Positions 14,367 to 62,592 of a stretch of DNA of 64,000 bases are shown one piece after another. How positions within the stretch are numbered: position 1 is the stretch's first letter; each line of letters begins with the position of its first letter. The notes under the pieces are model-generated. The model did no database searches and was not told the origin of the DNA. It saw nothing but the letters and a program-made list of their open reading frames with translations. Origin of the DNA: Mitsuaria sp. 7 (lineage in GTDB: Bacteria > Pseudomonadota > Gammaproteobacteria > Burkholderiales > Burkholderiaceae_C); assembly GCF_001653795.1 (NCBI RefSeq), contig NZ_CP011515.1, forward strand, positions 186,001 through 250,000. The letters run 5' to 3'. The position numbers were made by a program, and so were the translations under genes.

Positions 14367-14413
14367 GCCGCTGGCCCTCACCCCCACCCTCTCCCGCAAG
14401 CGGGAGAGGGAGT
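14367..14413. repeat. 47-bp palindromic dispersed repeat, copy 2
   Basis: Same 47-bp unit as at 10591-10637, differing at one position in the CCCCCACCC segment. It lies between the convergent aldo/keto reductase and AlkC-like genes and forms an inverted pair with the partial copy at 14449-14487. Confidence 0.85.
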
Positions 14414-14448
14414 CCGACCGGCCCCACTCGCAGCGCCCGCTTCTCTTG

Positions 14449-14487
14449 CTCCCTCTCCCGCTTGCGGGAGAGGGCAGGGGTGAGGGG
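14449..14487. repeat. Palindromic dispersed repeat, partial inverted copy
   Basis: Reverse-oriented copy containing the 11-bp-arm palindrome (CCCTCTCCCGC/TT/GCGGGAGAGGG) and the CAGGGGTGAGGG flank, but lacking the final GCCAGCGGC. Together with copy 2 it makes a head-to-head pair about 35 bp apart. Confidence 0.8.
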
Positions 14488-29255: not shown

Positions 29256-29306
29256 CCTGACCTCACCTGACCTGACCCTCGACAACGTCCTCGTTGCCGG
29301 TGGACG

Positions 29307-29442
29307 GGCATGGCCCGAGCTGGCGACGAAGTCGAGCTTCAAGAAAACTGACTTGGGCGCCGTCTGTCCGAGAGCAGCGAACCGAAGGTGAGCGAATCGA
29401 GTTGGCGCCCGCTCGACGCCCGGCGCCGGCTCGGGCCATGCC
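29307..29442. repeat. Structured dispersed element, copy A (imperfect inverted arms)
   Basis: The outer arms GGCATGGCCCGAGC (29307-29320) and its exact complement (29429-29442) and the inner arms GTCGAGC (29331-29337) and GCTCGAC (29411-29417) enclose a core of about 73 nt. The core starts TTCAAGAAAACTGACTTGG and contains GGGCGCC near its left and GGCGCCC at its right end, which can pair. The core is highly similar to that at 61149-61223, but the arms are different in sequence. It lies in the spacer between convergent ppk and ppx. No protein-coding potential is convincing. Confidence 0.85.
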
Positions 29443-29457
29443 TGTCGCGCCCGGTCT

Positions 29458-58197: not shown

Positions 58198-58310
58198 GGT
58201 GAGGTCGATTCTAAGCTTGGCCCCAGGAAAACCCCGCCCCCCGGGCGGGTGCCGGTGTCAGGCGCGGCCTGCTGACAGCCGGGGTGGCGTGCGCCTGCAA
58301 CAATGTCGGG

Positions 58311-61088
58311 ATGAGCAAACCTCTGATGCTGCTGGTCGACGGATCCAGCTACCTCTATCGCGCGTTCCACGCCATGCCCGACCTGCGCGGTCCCGGCGGG
58401 CAGCCCACCGGCGCCATCCACGGCATGGTGGCCATGCTGAAGAAGCTGCGCGACGACTACGGCGCCGAGCATGCGGCCTGCGTCTTCGACGCGTCCGGCC
58501 CGACCTTCCGCGACGAGTGGTACCCCGAATACAAGGCCCAGCGCGCCCCGATGCCCGACGCGCTGCGCGAGCAGATCGACCCCATCCACGAGGTGGTGAA
58601 GCTGCTGGGCTGGCCGGTGCTGACGGTGCCCGGCGTGGAGGCCGACGACTGCATCGGCACGCTGTCGCGGGTGGCGGCGCAGGCGGGGCACCAGGTGGTG
58701 ATCTCGACCGGCGACAAGGACCTGGCGCAGCTCGTGACGCCGGACGTCTCGCTGATCAACACGATGAGCAACGAGAAGCTGGACGAGGCCGGCGTGGTGG
58801 CCAAGTTCGGCGTGCCCCCGGACCGGATCATCGACTACCTGACCCTCATGGGCGACACGGTGGACAACGTGCCGGGCGTCGAGAAGGTCGGCCCGAAGAC
58901 CGCGGCCAAGTGGATCGCCGAGCACGGCTCGCTGGACGGCGTGATCGCCAACGCGGACCAGATCAAGGGCGTCGCCGGCGAGAACCTGCGCAAGGCGCTG
59001 GACTGGCTGCCGATGGGCCGCAAGCTGGTGACGGTCAAGGTCGACTGCGACCTGTGCGTGCACGTCGCGGGCTGGCCGGCGCTGGAGGCGCTGGCCTTCA
59101 ATCCGGTCGACGAGGCGGGGCTGCTCGACTTCTACACGCGCAACGGCTTCAAGACCTGGAAGCGCGACCTGGAAGGCAAGCTCGGCGGCGACGCGCCCAA
59201 GCGCGCCAGGCCGGAAGCGGACGTCGGCGCGGCGAGCCCGACCGATTCCCCTGCGGAGCACCAGCACCCGGCGATCCCCGTCGACAAGCGCTACGAGACC
59301 ATCCTCGACATGTCCCGGCTCGATGCCTGGGTCGAGCAGCTGAACGCCGCGGAGCTGTCCGCCTTCGACACCGAGACCGACTCGCTGGATCCGATGCAGG
59401 CGCGGATCGTCGGCATCAGCTTCAGCGTGAAGCCGGGCGAGGCCGCCTACATCCCGATCCGTCACGACGGTCCGGACGCGCCCGAGCAGTTGCCGATGGA
59501 CGCGGTGCTGGCGAAGCTCAAGCCCTGGCTCGAGGATCCGCTGAAGAAGAAGGTCGCGCAGAACGTCAAGTACGACACCCACGTGCTGGCCAACCACGGC
59601 ATCGCGGTCCAGGGCACGGCCTTCGACACGATGCTGGAAAGCTACGTGCTGGAGGCGCATCGCAGTCACGGCCTGGAGGCGCTGGCCGACCGCGTGCTGG
59701 GCCGCAAGGGCCTGAGCTACGAGGACCTCTGCGGCAAGGGCGCGCACCAGATCCCGTTCGCGCAGGTCGAGGTGGCGAAGGCGTCGGAGTACTCCTGCGA
59801 GGACTCCGAGATGTGCCTGCACGTGCACCAGACGCTGATGCCGCGCCTGGAGGCCGACGCCGGACTGAAGTTCATCTACGAGCAGATCGAGATGCCGGTG
59901 TCGGCGCTGCTGGCGCGCATCGAGCGCACCGGCGTGCTGATCGACGCCGGTCGGCTGCAGGCGCAGAGCGCCGACCTCGGCCAGCGCATGGTGGCGGCCG
60001 AGCAGGCGGCTTACGAGATCGCGGGTCAGCCGTTCAACATCGGCTCGCCCAAGCAGATCGGCGAGATCCTGTTCAACCGGCTCGGCCTGCCGGTGGTGAA
60101 GCGGACCGCGACCGGCGCGCCGTCGACGGACGAGGAGGTGCTGGAGAAGCTGTCGGCGGACTTCCCGCTGCCGGCCAAGATCCTGGAGTACCGCTCGCTG
60201 GCCAAGCTCAAGAGCACCTACACGGACAAGCTGCCGTTGATGGTCAATGCGACGACGGGTCGCGTGCACACGACCTACTCGCAGGCGGTGGCCGTGACGG
60301 GTCGCCTGTCCAGCAACGAGCCCAACCTGCAGAACATCCCCATCCGAACGGCCGAGGGCCGGCGTGTGCGCGAGGCCTTCATCGCGCCGGCGGGGCATCA
60401 CATCGTGTCGGCGGACTATTCGCAGATCGAGCTGCGGATCATGGCGCACATGAGCGGGGACCCGGGTCTGTTGAAGGCCTTCCAGGAGGGGCAGGACGTG
60501 CATCGCGCGACGGCCGCGGAGGTCTTCGGCGGTGACGTGGATGCGGTCACGCCCGAGCAGCGGCGTTACGCGAAGACGATCAACTTCGGTCTGATCTACG
60601 GCATGGGCGCGTTCGGGCTGGCGCAGTCGCTGGGCATCGAGCAGAAGGCGGCGAAGGACTACATCGACCGTTACTTCACGCGCTTCGCCGGCGTGCGCAG
60701 CTACATGGACGACACCAAGCAGTTCGCCAAGGAGAAGGGCTACGTCGAGACGGTCTTCGGTCGGCGTCTGTGGCTGCCGGAGATCAATTCGGGCAACGGT
60801 CCGCGTCGCAGCGGTGCGGAGCGTCAGGCGATCAATGCGCCGATGCAGGGCACGGCGGCCGACCTGATCAAGCTGGCGATGATCGCGGTGCAGCAGGCGC
60901 TGGACGAGCAGGGCAAGAAGACGAAGGTCGTGATGCAGGTGCATGACGAACTGGTCTTCGAGGTGCCGGACGAGGAGCTTGACTGGGTGAAGGCCGAGGT
61001 GCCGACGCTGATGGCTGGTGTTGCCGCGTTGAAGGTGCCGTTGCTGGCGGAAGTTGGCGTTGGCGCCAACTGGGACGAGGCGCATTGA
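58311..61088 (+). CDS. polA: DNA polymerase I
   Basis: A 925-residue family A polymerase for repair and Okazaki-fragment maturation. The N-terminal 5' nuclease (about 1-300) begins LMLLVDGSSYLYRAFHAMPDL and has GVEADDCIGTL and GDTVDNVPGVEKVGPKTA. The 3'-5' exonuclease has AFDTETDSLDP (the DxE pair intact), QNVKYDTHVL and EDSEMCLHV. The polymerase has SADYSQIELRIMAHMS, RRYAKTINFGLIYGMGAFGL and VMQVHDELVFEVP. Start at ATG 58311, divergent from DUF2782. Confidence 0.97.
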   Translation: MSKPLMLLVDGSSYLYRAFHAMPDLRGPGGQPTGAIHGMVAMLKKLRDDYGAEHAACVFDASGPTFRDEWYPEYKAQRAPMPDALREQIDPIHEVVKLLGWPVLTVPGVEADDCIGTLSRVAAQAGHQVVISTGDKDLAQLVTPDVSLINTMSNEKLDEAGVVAKFGVPPDRIIDYLTLMGDTVDNVPGVEKVGPKTAAKWIAEHGSLDGVIANADQIKGVAGENLRKALDWLPMGRKLVTVKVDCDLCVHVAGWPALEALAFNPVDEAGLLDFYTRNGFKTWKRDLEGKLGGDAPKRARPEADVGAASPTDSPAEHQHPAIPVDKRYETILDMSRLDAWVEQLNAAELSAFDTETDSLDPMQARIVGISFSVKPGEAAYIPIRHDGPDAPEQLPMDAVLAKLKPWLEDPLKKKVAQNVKYDTHVLANHGIAVQGTAFDTMLESYVLEAHRSHGLEALADRVLGRKGLSYEDLCGKGAHQIPFAQVEVAKASEYSCEDSEMCLHVHQTLMPRLEADAGLKFIYEQIEMPVSALLARIERTGVLIDAGRLQAQSADLGQRMVAAEQAAYEIAGQPFNIGSPKQIGEILFNRLGLPVVKRTATGAPSTDEEVLEKLSADFPLPAKILEYRSLAKLKSTYTDKLPLMVNATTGRVHTTYSQAVAVTGRLSSNEPNLQNIPIRTAEGRRVREAFIAPAGHHIVSADYSQIELRIMAHMSGDPGLLKAFQEGQDVHRATAAEVFGGDVDAVTPEQRRYAKTINFGLIYGMGAFGLAQSLGIEQKAAKDYIDRYFTRFAGVRSYMDDTKQFAKEKGYVETVFGRRLWLPEINSGNGPRRSGAERQAINAPMQGTAADLIKLAMIAVQQALDEQGKKTKVVMQVHDELVFEVPDEELDWVKAEVPTLMAGVAALKVPLLAEVGVGANWDEAH

Positions 61089-61107
61089 CGGAGAGCTCGG
61101 TGCATCG

Positions 61108-61264
61108 CGGACGCCGGGGCGGGCCCCAGGCCGCTGTCGCATCGAGCCTTTCGAAAAAACTGACTTGGGCGCCGTCTGTTCGAGCACAGCGAACCGCAGG
61201 TGAGCGGCGCGAGTTGGCGTCCGGGCTCGATGCGACAGCGGCCTGGGGCCCGCCCCGGCGTCCG
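61108..61264. repeat. Structured dispersed element, copy B (perfect 41-bp inverted arms)
   Basis: The arms 61108-61148 and 61224-61264 are exact reverse complements over 41 bp, ending inward with ATCGAGCC/GGCTCGAT. They enclose a 75-nt core (61149-61223) starting TTTCGAAAAAACTGACTTGG. The core is highly similar to that of copy A at 29338-29410, differing at only a handful of positions after ACTGACTTGG, while the arms differ. GGGCGCC and GGCGTCC inside the core can extend the stem with a G.U pair. It fills most of the polA-lolC spacer; no convincing protein is encoded. Confidence 0.9.
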
Positions 61265-61323
61265 TCGCTCATCAGCCAGTCCTAAGCGGGAAGGGTGGGG
61301 CGAGCGGTTAGCATCCACCCCCT

Positions 61324-62592
61324 ATGAATTGGCCCTATGAGTTGCAGATCGGCTGGCGTTACACGCGAGCTGGGCGTGGAGGGCGCCGCAACCGCTTCAT
61401 CTCCTTCATCTCTGGTGTGTCGATGTTCGGCATTGCGCTGGGTGTTGCCGCGTTGATCATCGTCCTGTCGGTGATGAACGGCTTCCAGAAGGAGGTCCGT
61501 GAACGGATGCTGTCCGTGATCGCGCACGTTGAGCTGCTGAACGACACGGGTGAGGGCTTGCCGGATTGGCGGGCGGTGGCGGATCAGGCGAAGAAGAATC
61601 CTGAGGTTGCTGCCGCCGCGCCGTTCGTGTCGGGCCAGGCGCTGATCGCGCGGGGTTCCGACATGCGGGGCACGATCGTGCGGGGCATCGATCCGGCGCT
61701 GGAGCCGACGGTGACGCCGATCGCCGAGAAGCTGGCGAAGGACGGCCTGCTGGAGCGTCTGCAGCCGGGGCAATGGAACATCATCCTGGGCGTCGAGCTG
61801 GCGCGGCAACTGGGCGTGCAGCGCGGCGACAAGATCACGCTGGCGATCCCGTCGGGGCAGGTGACGCCGCTGGGCGTCCAGCCGACGCTGCGGCAGTTCA
61901 CACTGGTCGGCGTCTTCGAGGCCGGCCACTATGAGTACGACAGCGGCCTGGCGCTCATCCATGTGGGCGATGCCGCCAAGCTGTTCCGCACCGGCACGCC
62001 GAGCGGCGTGCAGTTGAAGCTGCGTGACGTGCAACTGGCCCGTCAGGTCGGCGCTCAATTGCAGCGCGACCTGCTGCAGGCGGGGCAGGCCATCTACGTC
62101 CGCGACTGGACCCGCACCAACGCCAACTGGTACGACGCGGTCCAGGTCGAGAAGCGGATGATGGGCATCATCCTGACGCTGATCGTCGCGGTCGCCGCGT
62201 TCAACCTGGTGTCGACGCTGGTGATGACCGTCACCGACAAGCAGGCCGACATCGCGATCCTGCGCACGCTGGGCGCGAGCCCGCGCTCGATCATGGGCGT
62301 GTTCATGATCCAGGGCGCGTTGGCCGGCGTGATCGGCACGCTGGGCGGACTCGGACTGGGCTTGGTCGTCGCGCACAACCTGGACGTGATCGTTCCGACC
62401 ATCGAGAAACTGCTGCACACCACCTTCCTGCCGGCCAGCATCTACGTCATCAGCCACATGCCGAGCGATCCGCAGTGGTCCGACATCGTGCCCATCACCG
62501 TGACCTCGCTGATCCTGGCCTTCGTCGCGACGGTCTATCCGAGCTGGCGCGCCAGCCGCGTCCAACCCGCGGAGGCGCTGCGCTATGAGTGA
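61324..62592 (+). CDS. lolC: Lipoprotein-releasing ABC transporter permease (LolC/LolE type)
   Basis: A 422-residue inner-membrane permease that extracts lipoproteins for delivery to LolA. The N-terminus [30 protein letters not shown] is a Lol hallmark; it is followed by TM1 ([21 protein letters not shown]), a large periplasmic domain and three C-terminal TMs (for example [24 protein letters not shown]). Only one permease gene is present, so the complex may be a homodimer of the LolF kind. The end overlaps lolD by eight bases. Confidence 0.93.

Follow-up and report, generated by a model that had tools for sequence, protein, structure and literature searches.

A dispersed, structured intergenic repeat family of Burkholderiales with a conserved core and locus-specific stems

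We analyzed a long inverted repeat in a 64,000-nt stretch of the Mitsuaria sp. 7 genome (the window) and found that it is one copy of a dispersed, chromosomal, intergenic, structured repeat family of Burkholderiales. Copies of the family share a core built of an unpaired CTGACT-like strand, a helix (P3) and a hairpin made up of short helices, with GA/GA motifs and C(GNA)G loops. The long stems around this core were rewritten on both sides between species, with pairing largely kept, and the mismatches within them are asymmetric between the strands.

Results

A perfect inverted repeat between polA and lolC

The element lies in the spacer between two genes that we take to be polA and lolC, from the names given in the first-pass annotation (Table 1). 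Among the six inverted pairs with arms of at least 22 nt listed in the window (distance limit 300), that of the element is the longest and the sole perfect one. As the first-pass annotation had described, its 41-nt arms are 100% complementary with 75 nt between them; by a simple estimate at 68% GC, the chance expectation for a perfect 41-bp pair is approximately 6e-16. The region 61100-61270 had a predicted RNA folding energy of -136.1 kcal/mol (z -12.7), and none of 200 shuffled sequences folded as well. The proposed extension of the stem into the core also held: GGGCGCC can pair with GGCGTCC through a helix containing one G.T, and an A-rich strand with CTGACT at its end then stays unpaired.

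Table 1. Features of the element, its neighbours and the second copy in the window.
Feature	Position	Strand	Basis
Whole element	61108..61264	+ (core sense = + strand = sense of polA)	sequence, inverted-repeat listing, fold, R1 match
Long stem, 5' arm, locus-specific sequence	61108..61148	+	inverted-repeat listing; paired change with 3' arm between species
Long stem, 3' arm, perfect complement of 5' arm	61224..61264	+	inverted-repeat listing; between-species comparison
Conserved core	61153..61224	+	covariance model R1, 79.6 bits
CTGACT, unpaired in predicted fold, small variation across family	61160..61165	+	RNA fold, alignments
Helix P3, 5' strand GGGCGCC, partner 61216-61222	61167..61173	+	RNA fold; 80.6% of cells pair (29-copy Roseateles alignment)
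Helix P3, 3' strand GGCGTCC	61216..61222	+	RNA fold, covariation count
Inner loop and hairpin P4 (CTGT..GAGTT), GA/GA motifs	61176..61215	+	alignments; P4 helices pair in 99-100% of cells
C(GCA)G loop of P4	61195-61199	+	alignments
Presumed polA ORF, upstream gene	58284..61088	+	ORF list; stop 19 nt before 5' arm
Presumed lolC ORF, downstream gene	61324..62592	+	ORF list
Second window copy, arms 29303-29328 / 29421-29446, core 29341-29412	29303..29446	+	between convergent ppk1-like and ppx-like genes

The first-pass annotation had placed a recurrence of the core at 29338-29410. This is essentially right: R1, a covariance model of the core built from 48 copies, matched there with 82.5 bits. The inverted arms of this second copy are less perfect (88% complementary), and its fold has a z of -8.2. 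The window contains another intergenic hairpin of the CCCTCACCCCCACCCTCTCCCGC.. type at 14375-14486, with 38-nt arms that are 95% complementary and 36 nt apart, which we presume to belong to a separate repeat family.

Copies occur across the genus, the family and occasionally beyond

Searching the genome and its relatives with the core, as had been proposed, revealed many dispersed copies beyond the two in the window. BLAST with the core gave four clear copies in the source genome, which belongs to the Roseateles group, and R1 gave seven (E <1e-14; next candidate E = 0.56). R1 matches were found in 13 of 16 genomes of the genus and, with 12 candidates scored per genome, in 178 of 399 genomes and 68 of 141 genera drawn from the family. 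There were matches in 10 of 300 genomes drawn from the order, five of them outside the family, and in 3 of 369 drawn from the class, one of which (G922) lies outside the order. Eight carriers picked for high counts or interest had 14 to 81 copies per genome. A pattern scan of contigs recovered 30 stretches; 28 were from Burkholderiales or uncultured betaproteobacteria (Roseateles, Mitsuaria, Rubrivivax, Ideonella, MAGs), and R1 confirmed 28 of these 28 and neither of the other two.

In G922 there were seven weak yet repeated copies of the same layout; the repeat there (L230, L232-L238) is related, with a shorter P4 followed by a CTTTCTTGGG..CAAGCAAGAAAG hairpin. Many copies in G158, G286, G352 and G679 lie approximately 2-400 nt from the end of a contig. 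The repeats probably interrupt short-read assembly, with undercounting as a result.

The plasmid collection had no match to the window element, and a paired unit from G130, a genome of another genus, gave one weak partial match there. There was no match in the phage collection, nor in viral contigs searched with one exact 21-mer. With next to nothing matched by the queries tried, we rejected an origin from plasmids, phages or viruses.

In other genera the copies are larger and carry a GC-rich hairpin on the 5' side of the core, an additional stem and a 3' hairpin. Many of them form inverted pairs approximately 200-350 nt apart with the core strands facing outward; Ideonella pairs face inward. 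Tandem arrangements were seen as well. One locus (L161 554-1010, G002:C1) has the Roseateles element three times at a 184-nt spacing with few differences. In two G158 loci (L257 342-539 and L258 322-501) the inner domain is duplicated exactly inside one element, over 99 bp and 90 bp respectively, with the outer stem kept.

Covariation in the stems and the core

After removal of three pattern hits that did not have the structure (L057, L081, L093), we aligned 29 Roseateles copies over 24 stem pairs, P3 and P4. These positions pair in 93.5% of cells, and 28 of the 38 stem pairs have changes on both sides somewhere in the alignment. There were 171 cells with double changes, compared to 44.2 (sd 5.4) in shuffled alignments and at most 38 with the structure slid along the sequence. 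For the core structure, an alignment of 48 copies drawn from several genera had 49 double-change cells against 17.8. TGT..GA and GAGTT are invariant in these 48 copies and the unpaired strand commonly reads CTGACT; P3 pairs in 64.9% of cells, a low value because its register varies.

The covariation that the first-pass annotation had proposed to look for is strong, both in the stems and in the core. On this and on the rarity of the perfect pair estimated above, we rejected chance or local duplication as the origin of the element. The outcome under which the annotation would have been abandoned, with the core found nowhere else, no covariation and simple local duplication, was examined in substance and was not what we found.

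Arms are rewritten while pairing is kept

We compared the 41 arm pairs of the polA-lolC copy between species. Genomes G000 and G010, whose polA stretches are 90.0% identical, have 25 pairs in common; at ten, both sides have been replaced by another Watson-Crick pair, and there are three G.U and three other mismatches. Double replacements relative to G000 numbered ten in G006, eight in G013 and one in G005; the G004 row, with seven double replacements and 17 other mismatches, is unreliable owing to alignment gaps. Perfect arms had been thought to suggest, among other things, recent formation. That is not needed, as this copy is common to six species and its arms have since changed in step.

Core and arms were also compared within a single genome, G158. 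Of 16 regions, three run into a contig end and 13 were aligned; L244, with a duplicated piece as its 5' side, was excluded and 12 were counted. Two further regions served the tandem test. One subtype of six copies differed at 1.8% of core sites, compared with 29.5% of arm pairs; there were 251 double Watson-Crick changes in the arms, 47 changes in which G.U took part and 78 with a mismatch. In a second subtype of six the values were 5.6% and 17.4%, with 122, 46 and 63 such changes. These counts are pairwise and not independent. Among the double changes, transitions and transversions were evenly split (132:119 and 63:59). A path through G.U pairs would not predict this split, whereas copying from one arm to the other would. 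Template switching is described as both making and mending hairpins (PMC8794818).

Mismatches in the arms are asymmetric between strands

Read on the core strand, the isolated arm mismatches of 33 Roseateles copies comprised 26 G.T, one A.C and ten others, with G.T and A.C given equal scores (L126 was dropped from 34 copies as the same element as L079). The G.T mismatches were carried by 19 copies and the A.C by one. The 26:1 ratio has p = 4e-7 if independence is assumed, which orthologous copies violate. For 74 larger elements, most of them from other genera (77 listed, three identical rows removed), the inner helices had 73 G.T, 27 A.C and 185 others, many of the last expected from G.A motifs. 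An earlier count in other genera, on 51 larger elements whose outer arms were badly bounded, gave 5 G.T, 4 A.C and 17 others. RNAalifold-chosen pairs in 44 larger copies gave 193 G.T and 52 A.C, with a choice of pairs that itself favours G.U.

These ratios bear on the reading that the inverted repeat is a by-product of template switching, with correction from arm to arm acting alone and the folded strand having no function. Transversions make up half of the double changes and the arms have diverged far more than the core, as this reading would have it. Correction of this kind is strand-blind, however, and would not produce the excess of G.T over A.C (26:1 and 73:27, if upheld with independent loci), nor a core whose short helices are conserved and covary; we consider the reading improbable. 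Strand-biased deamination could add to the bias and would hardly yield 26:1. From the mismatch pattern, the core-sense strand seems to be selected as a folded single strand.

Whether that strand would act as RNA or as DNA is not settled by the asymmetry. By context, the G.T:A.C ratio in the 74 larger elements was 25:5 in ++ elements (sense), 20:11 in -- elements (antisense to both neighbours) and 12:5 in +- elements, the rest being few or without assigned context. Since the lean to G.T is also present in elements antisense to both neighbours, RNA is not favoured over single-stranded DNA.

Copies lie just downstream of genes

The 33 Roseateles copies represent 15 loci by their neighbouring genes. 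With crude gene calls based on codon usage, the nearest stop codon was approximately 40-143 nt from the core at all 15 loci, and the core was in the sense of the upstream gene at 13. Five of the loci were co-directional and sense, two co-directional and antisense, and the rest convergent (one group mixed); none was divergent, and the difference between five and two lacks statistical significance. When 48 copies were taken under looser criteria, there were 19 convergent, 25 co-directional and no divergent contexts, with four without an assigned context. Among 14 paired loci in other genera, one was divergent, by a weak ORF. The neighbours (ppk1 and a ppx-like gene at the 29-kb copy, hemH, fdhD, genes resembling those for malic enzyme and a sigma-54 regulator, transporters) have no common theme, and we rejected a gene-specific riboswitch because they are unrelated.

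Filled and empty sites

Comparing polA-lolC spacers across the genus, as the first-pass annotation had suggested, showed presence and absence at this site: 6 of 16 genomes have the element and 10 do not. Seven of the ten have short spacers; the other three either do not have the expected lolC start or have a long spacer with other repeats, and these three have zero R1 matches genome-wide. The polA tree is most simply read as a single gain followed by a single loss, in G009, with a weak placement of G004 (support 0.42). Since G009 has lost the copy and other species never had it, it is not essential at this site. In two genomes that do not have the element, the spacer 3' of polA contains a different hairpin repeat (G014, L197; G015, L203), in G014 as three near-identical tandem units.

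A second site was found beside a stop codon in G130, where 610 nt containing an element pair correspond to 6 nt in the relative G366; in this comparison of two genomes, insertion and deletion are indistinguishable. There was no clear target-site duplication in the one pair examined, and the element termini are inverted and not conserved between loci. The family combines dispersed copies with filled and empty orthologous sites, as MITE-type elements do, which supports the earlier suggestion of a non-autonomous mobile element. The suggestion of a structured RNA is supported by the covariation and the strand-specific tolerance of G.T, and the two are compatible.

Comparison with known elements

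No Rfam 15 family matched the window above its gathering cut-off, and ten loci gave only sub-threshold, chance-like hits. An intrinsic terminator of the classical kind was rejected for want of a U-tract behind the stem: none of 34 Roseateles copies had a run of at least four T within 25 nt of it. A motif in the 3' flank, GCTCGGTC, drew attention on visual inspection and is not claimed; CTCGGT occurs near the foot of the stem in only 9 of 34 copies, an uncontrolled count.

An integron attC-like recombination site had been suggested on grounds of structure, and the family does resemble attC in its conserved structure and single unpaired strand. The R-box consensus is missing: neither RYYYAAC nor GTTRRRY occurs in the element or in the 25 nt to each side, whichever strand is read. 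The loci examined sit between ordinary genes. We rejected this possibility and regard it as scarcely credible.

The placement of the family, intergenic, near gene 3' ends and in convergent or co-directional contexts, is that of REP/BIME elements. REP, BIME and REPIN sequences are likewise described as dispersed intergenic palindromes so placed that form inverted dimers (PMC3733652, PMC2817692). REPs, however, are palindromes of 20-40 bp that have GTAG/CGTC tags and conserved stems and are often accompanied by a RAYT (PMC3733652, PMC2817692), whereas the window element is 157 nt with a conserved interior, and the family (150-300 nt) has a conserved core, variable stems and no RAYT association that we could find. 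The Y1 transposase domain PF01797 was present in 13 of 17 carriers and absent from G130, G146, G315 and G366; an R1 match (E<0.001) was near 1 of 20 Y1 loci, that one a 55-aa fragment. With no RAYT association in these 17 carriers and 20 loci, we rejected a RAYT-mobilised REP/BIME.

ERIC, NEMIS/Correia and RUP elements are non-coding, 100-200 nt long and dispersed in a MITE-like manner, can fold, and have termini or stems conserved within each family. The hairpin family is similar in size, non-coding nature, dispersal and folding; its termini are the variable part. All three are named as small intergenic repeats in PMC3110155. The 'Burkholderiales-1' motif (Weinberg et al. 2010, PMC2864571), listed as a candidate structured motif that is uncertain as an RNA, with no Rfam accession in the table, shares the order and a candidate structure with the family, a likeness judged by description.

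The open-licence literature provided one close candidate, the Beta-proteobacterial repeat element BRE (Hot et al. 2011, PMC3110155). As described there, BRE occurs on Bordetella and Comamonadaceae chromosomes, mostly between genes, in tandem units of 75-91 bp with a GC content of approximately 69% and up to 29 copies per genome. None of 23 filled context entries in its Table 3 is divergent, loci are patchy between related species, and transcripts of approximately 80 and 200 nt are reported for the region of one copy. Compared by description, BRE and the hairpin family are alike in taxon, chromosomal and intergenic location, patchiness and absence of divergent contexts. Tandem units may be a further likeness, given the exact duplications of 99 and 90 bp at two G158 loci, though most copies examined are not tandem. 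BRE differs in being a tandem repeat of approximately 90 bp, and long locus-specific arms, covariation and strand asymmetry are absent from the excerpted description (PMC3110155). On this comparison of descriptions, the chances seem about evenly balanced that BRE would be the inner domain of the hairpin family.

A stronger version would equate the core domain with BRE as a variable-number tandem repeat of approximately 90 bp that has no folded function. The taxa and the chromosomal, intergenic location agree, and the G158 tandem units of 90 and 99 bp may correspond to those of 75-91 bp (PMC3110155). Most copies examined are nevertheless single or in inverted pairs on long arms, not in tandem arrays, and the likeness is one of description; we see little chance that this version is correct.

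Discussion

The explanation we favour, with roughly an even chance of being right, is a REP-like dispersed repeat acting as an RNA hairpin at the 3' ends of messages, with arms kept alike by selection together with copying from arm to arm. It is based on the covariation in 28 of 38 pairs, the double replacements at polA-lolC, the 26:1 and 73:27 asymmetry, the placement near stop codons at 15 of 15 loci, the 7 to 81 copies per genome and the rewriting of arms in G158. The core-sense strand would function as RNA towards the 3' end of transcripts, in this case the polA mRNA. It would most likely form a very stable end structure protecting or delimiting the message, and the core would be a putative protein-binding site. 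Dispersal would occur in the manner of REP or MITE elements. Pairing of the stem would be held by selection on the single strand and by template switching between arms during replication, in which one event could rewrite both arms.

The main rival, which we consider unlikely, is that the folded core strand acts as single-stranded DNA that some enzyme recognises and moves, for example during replication, and that placement at 3' ends reflects tolerance. TnpA/RAYT enzymes act on IS200/IS605 ends and on REPs as single-stranded DNA, and GNA loops are stable in DNA. The inverted pairs whose core strands point outward, seen in many genera, the 610-nt filled site opposite 6 nt in a relative, the occurrence of copies in both orientations, the stable GNA loops, and the G.T excess in elements antisense to both neighbours (20:11) are all consistent with it. 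Against it, no transposase was found: PF01797 is missing from four of 17 carriers with many copies and adjoins an element at one of 20 loci. The polA-lolC arms, moreover, stayed paired through speciation without moving, and a selfish single-stranded DNA signal needs no such pairing.

Beyond the preferred RNA hairpin, we more tentatively propose that what is transmitted may be a shape: a nearly unchanged core, with stems in which both sides would be rewritten, locus by locus, through template switching under selection on one strand. We doubt this more than the hairpin itself.

Copies of the family are common at gene ends within one bacterial order, and no Rfam 15 entry matched them. Nearly identical cores with differently written, matching stems occur within one genome, which makes the maintenance of stem pairing directly testable, and the existence of species with and without the polA-lolC copy offers a clean comparison for the role of a 3'-end hairpin. 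If shape is indeed what is transmitted, the family would be a natural multi-copy system in which to watch stems evolve, and its core would mark an RNA- or single-stranded DNA-binding partner that is widespread in Burkholderiales.
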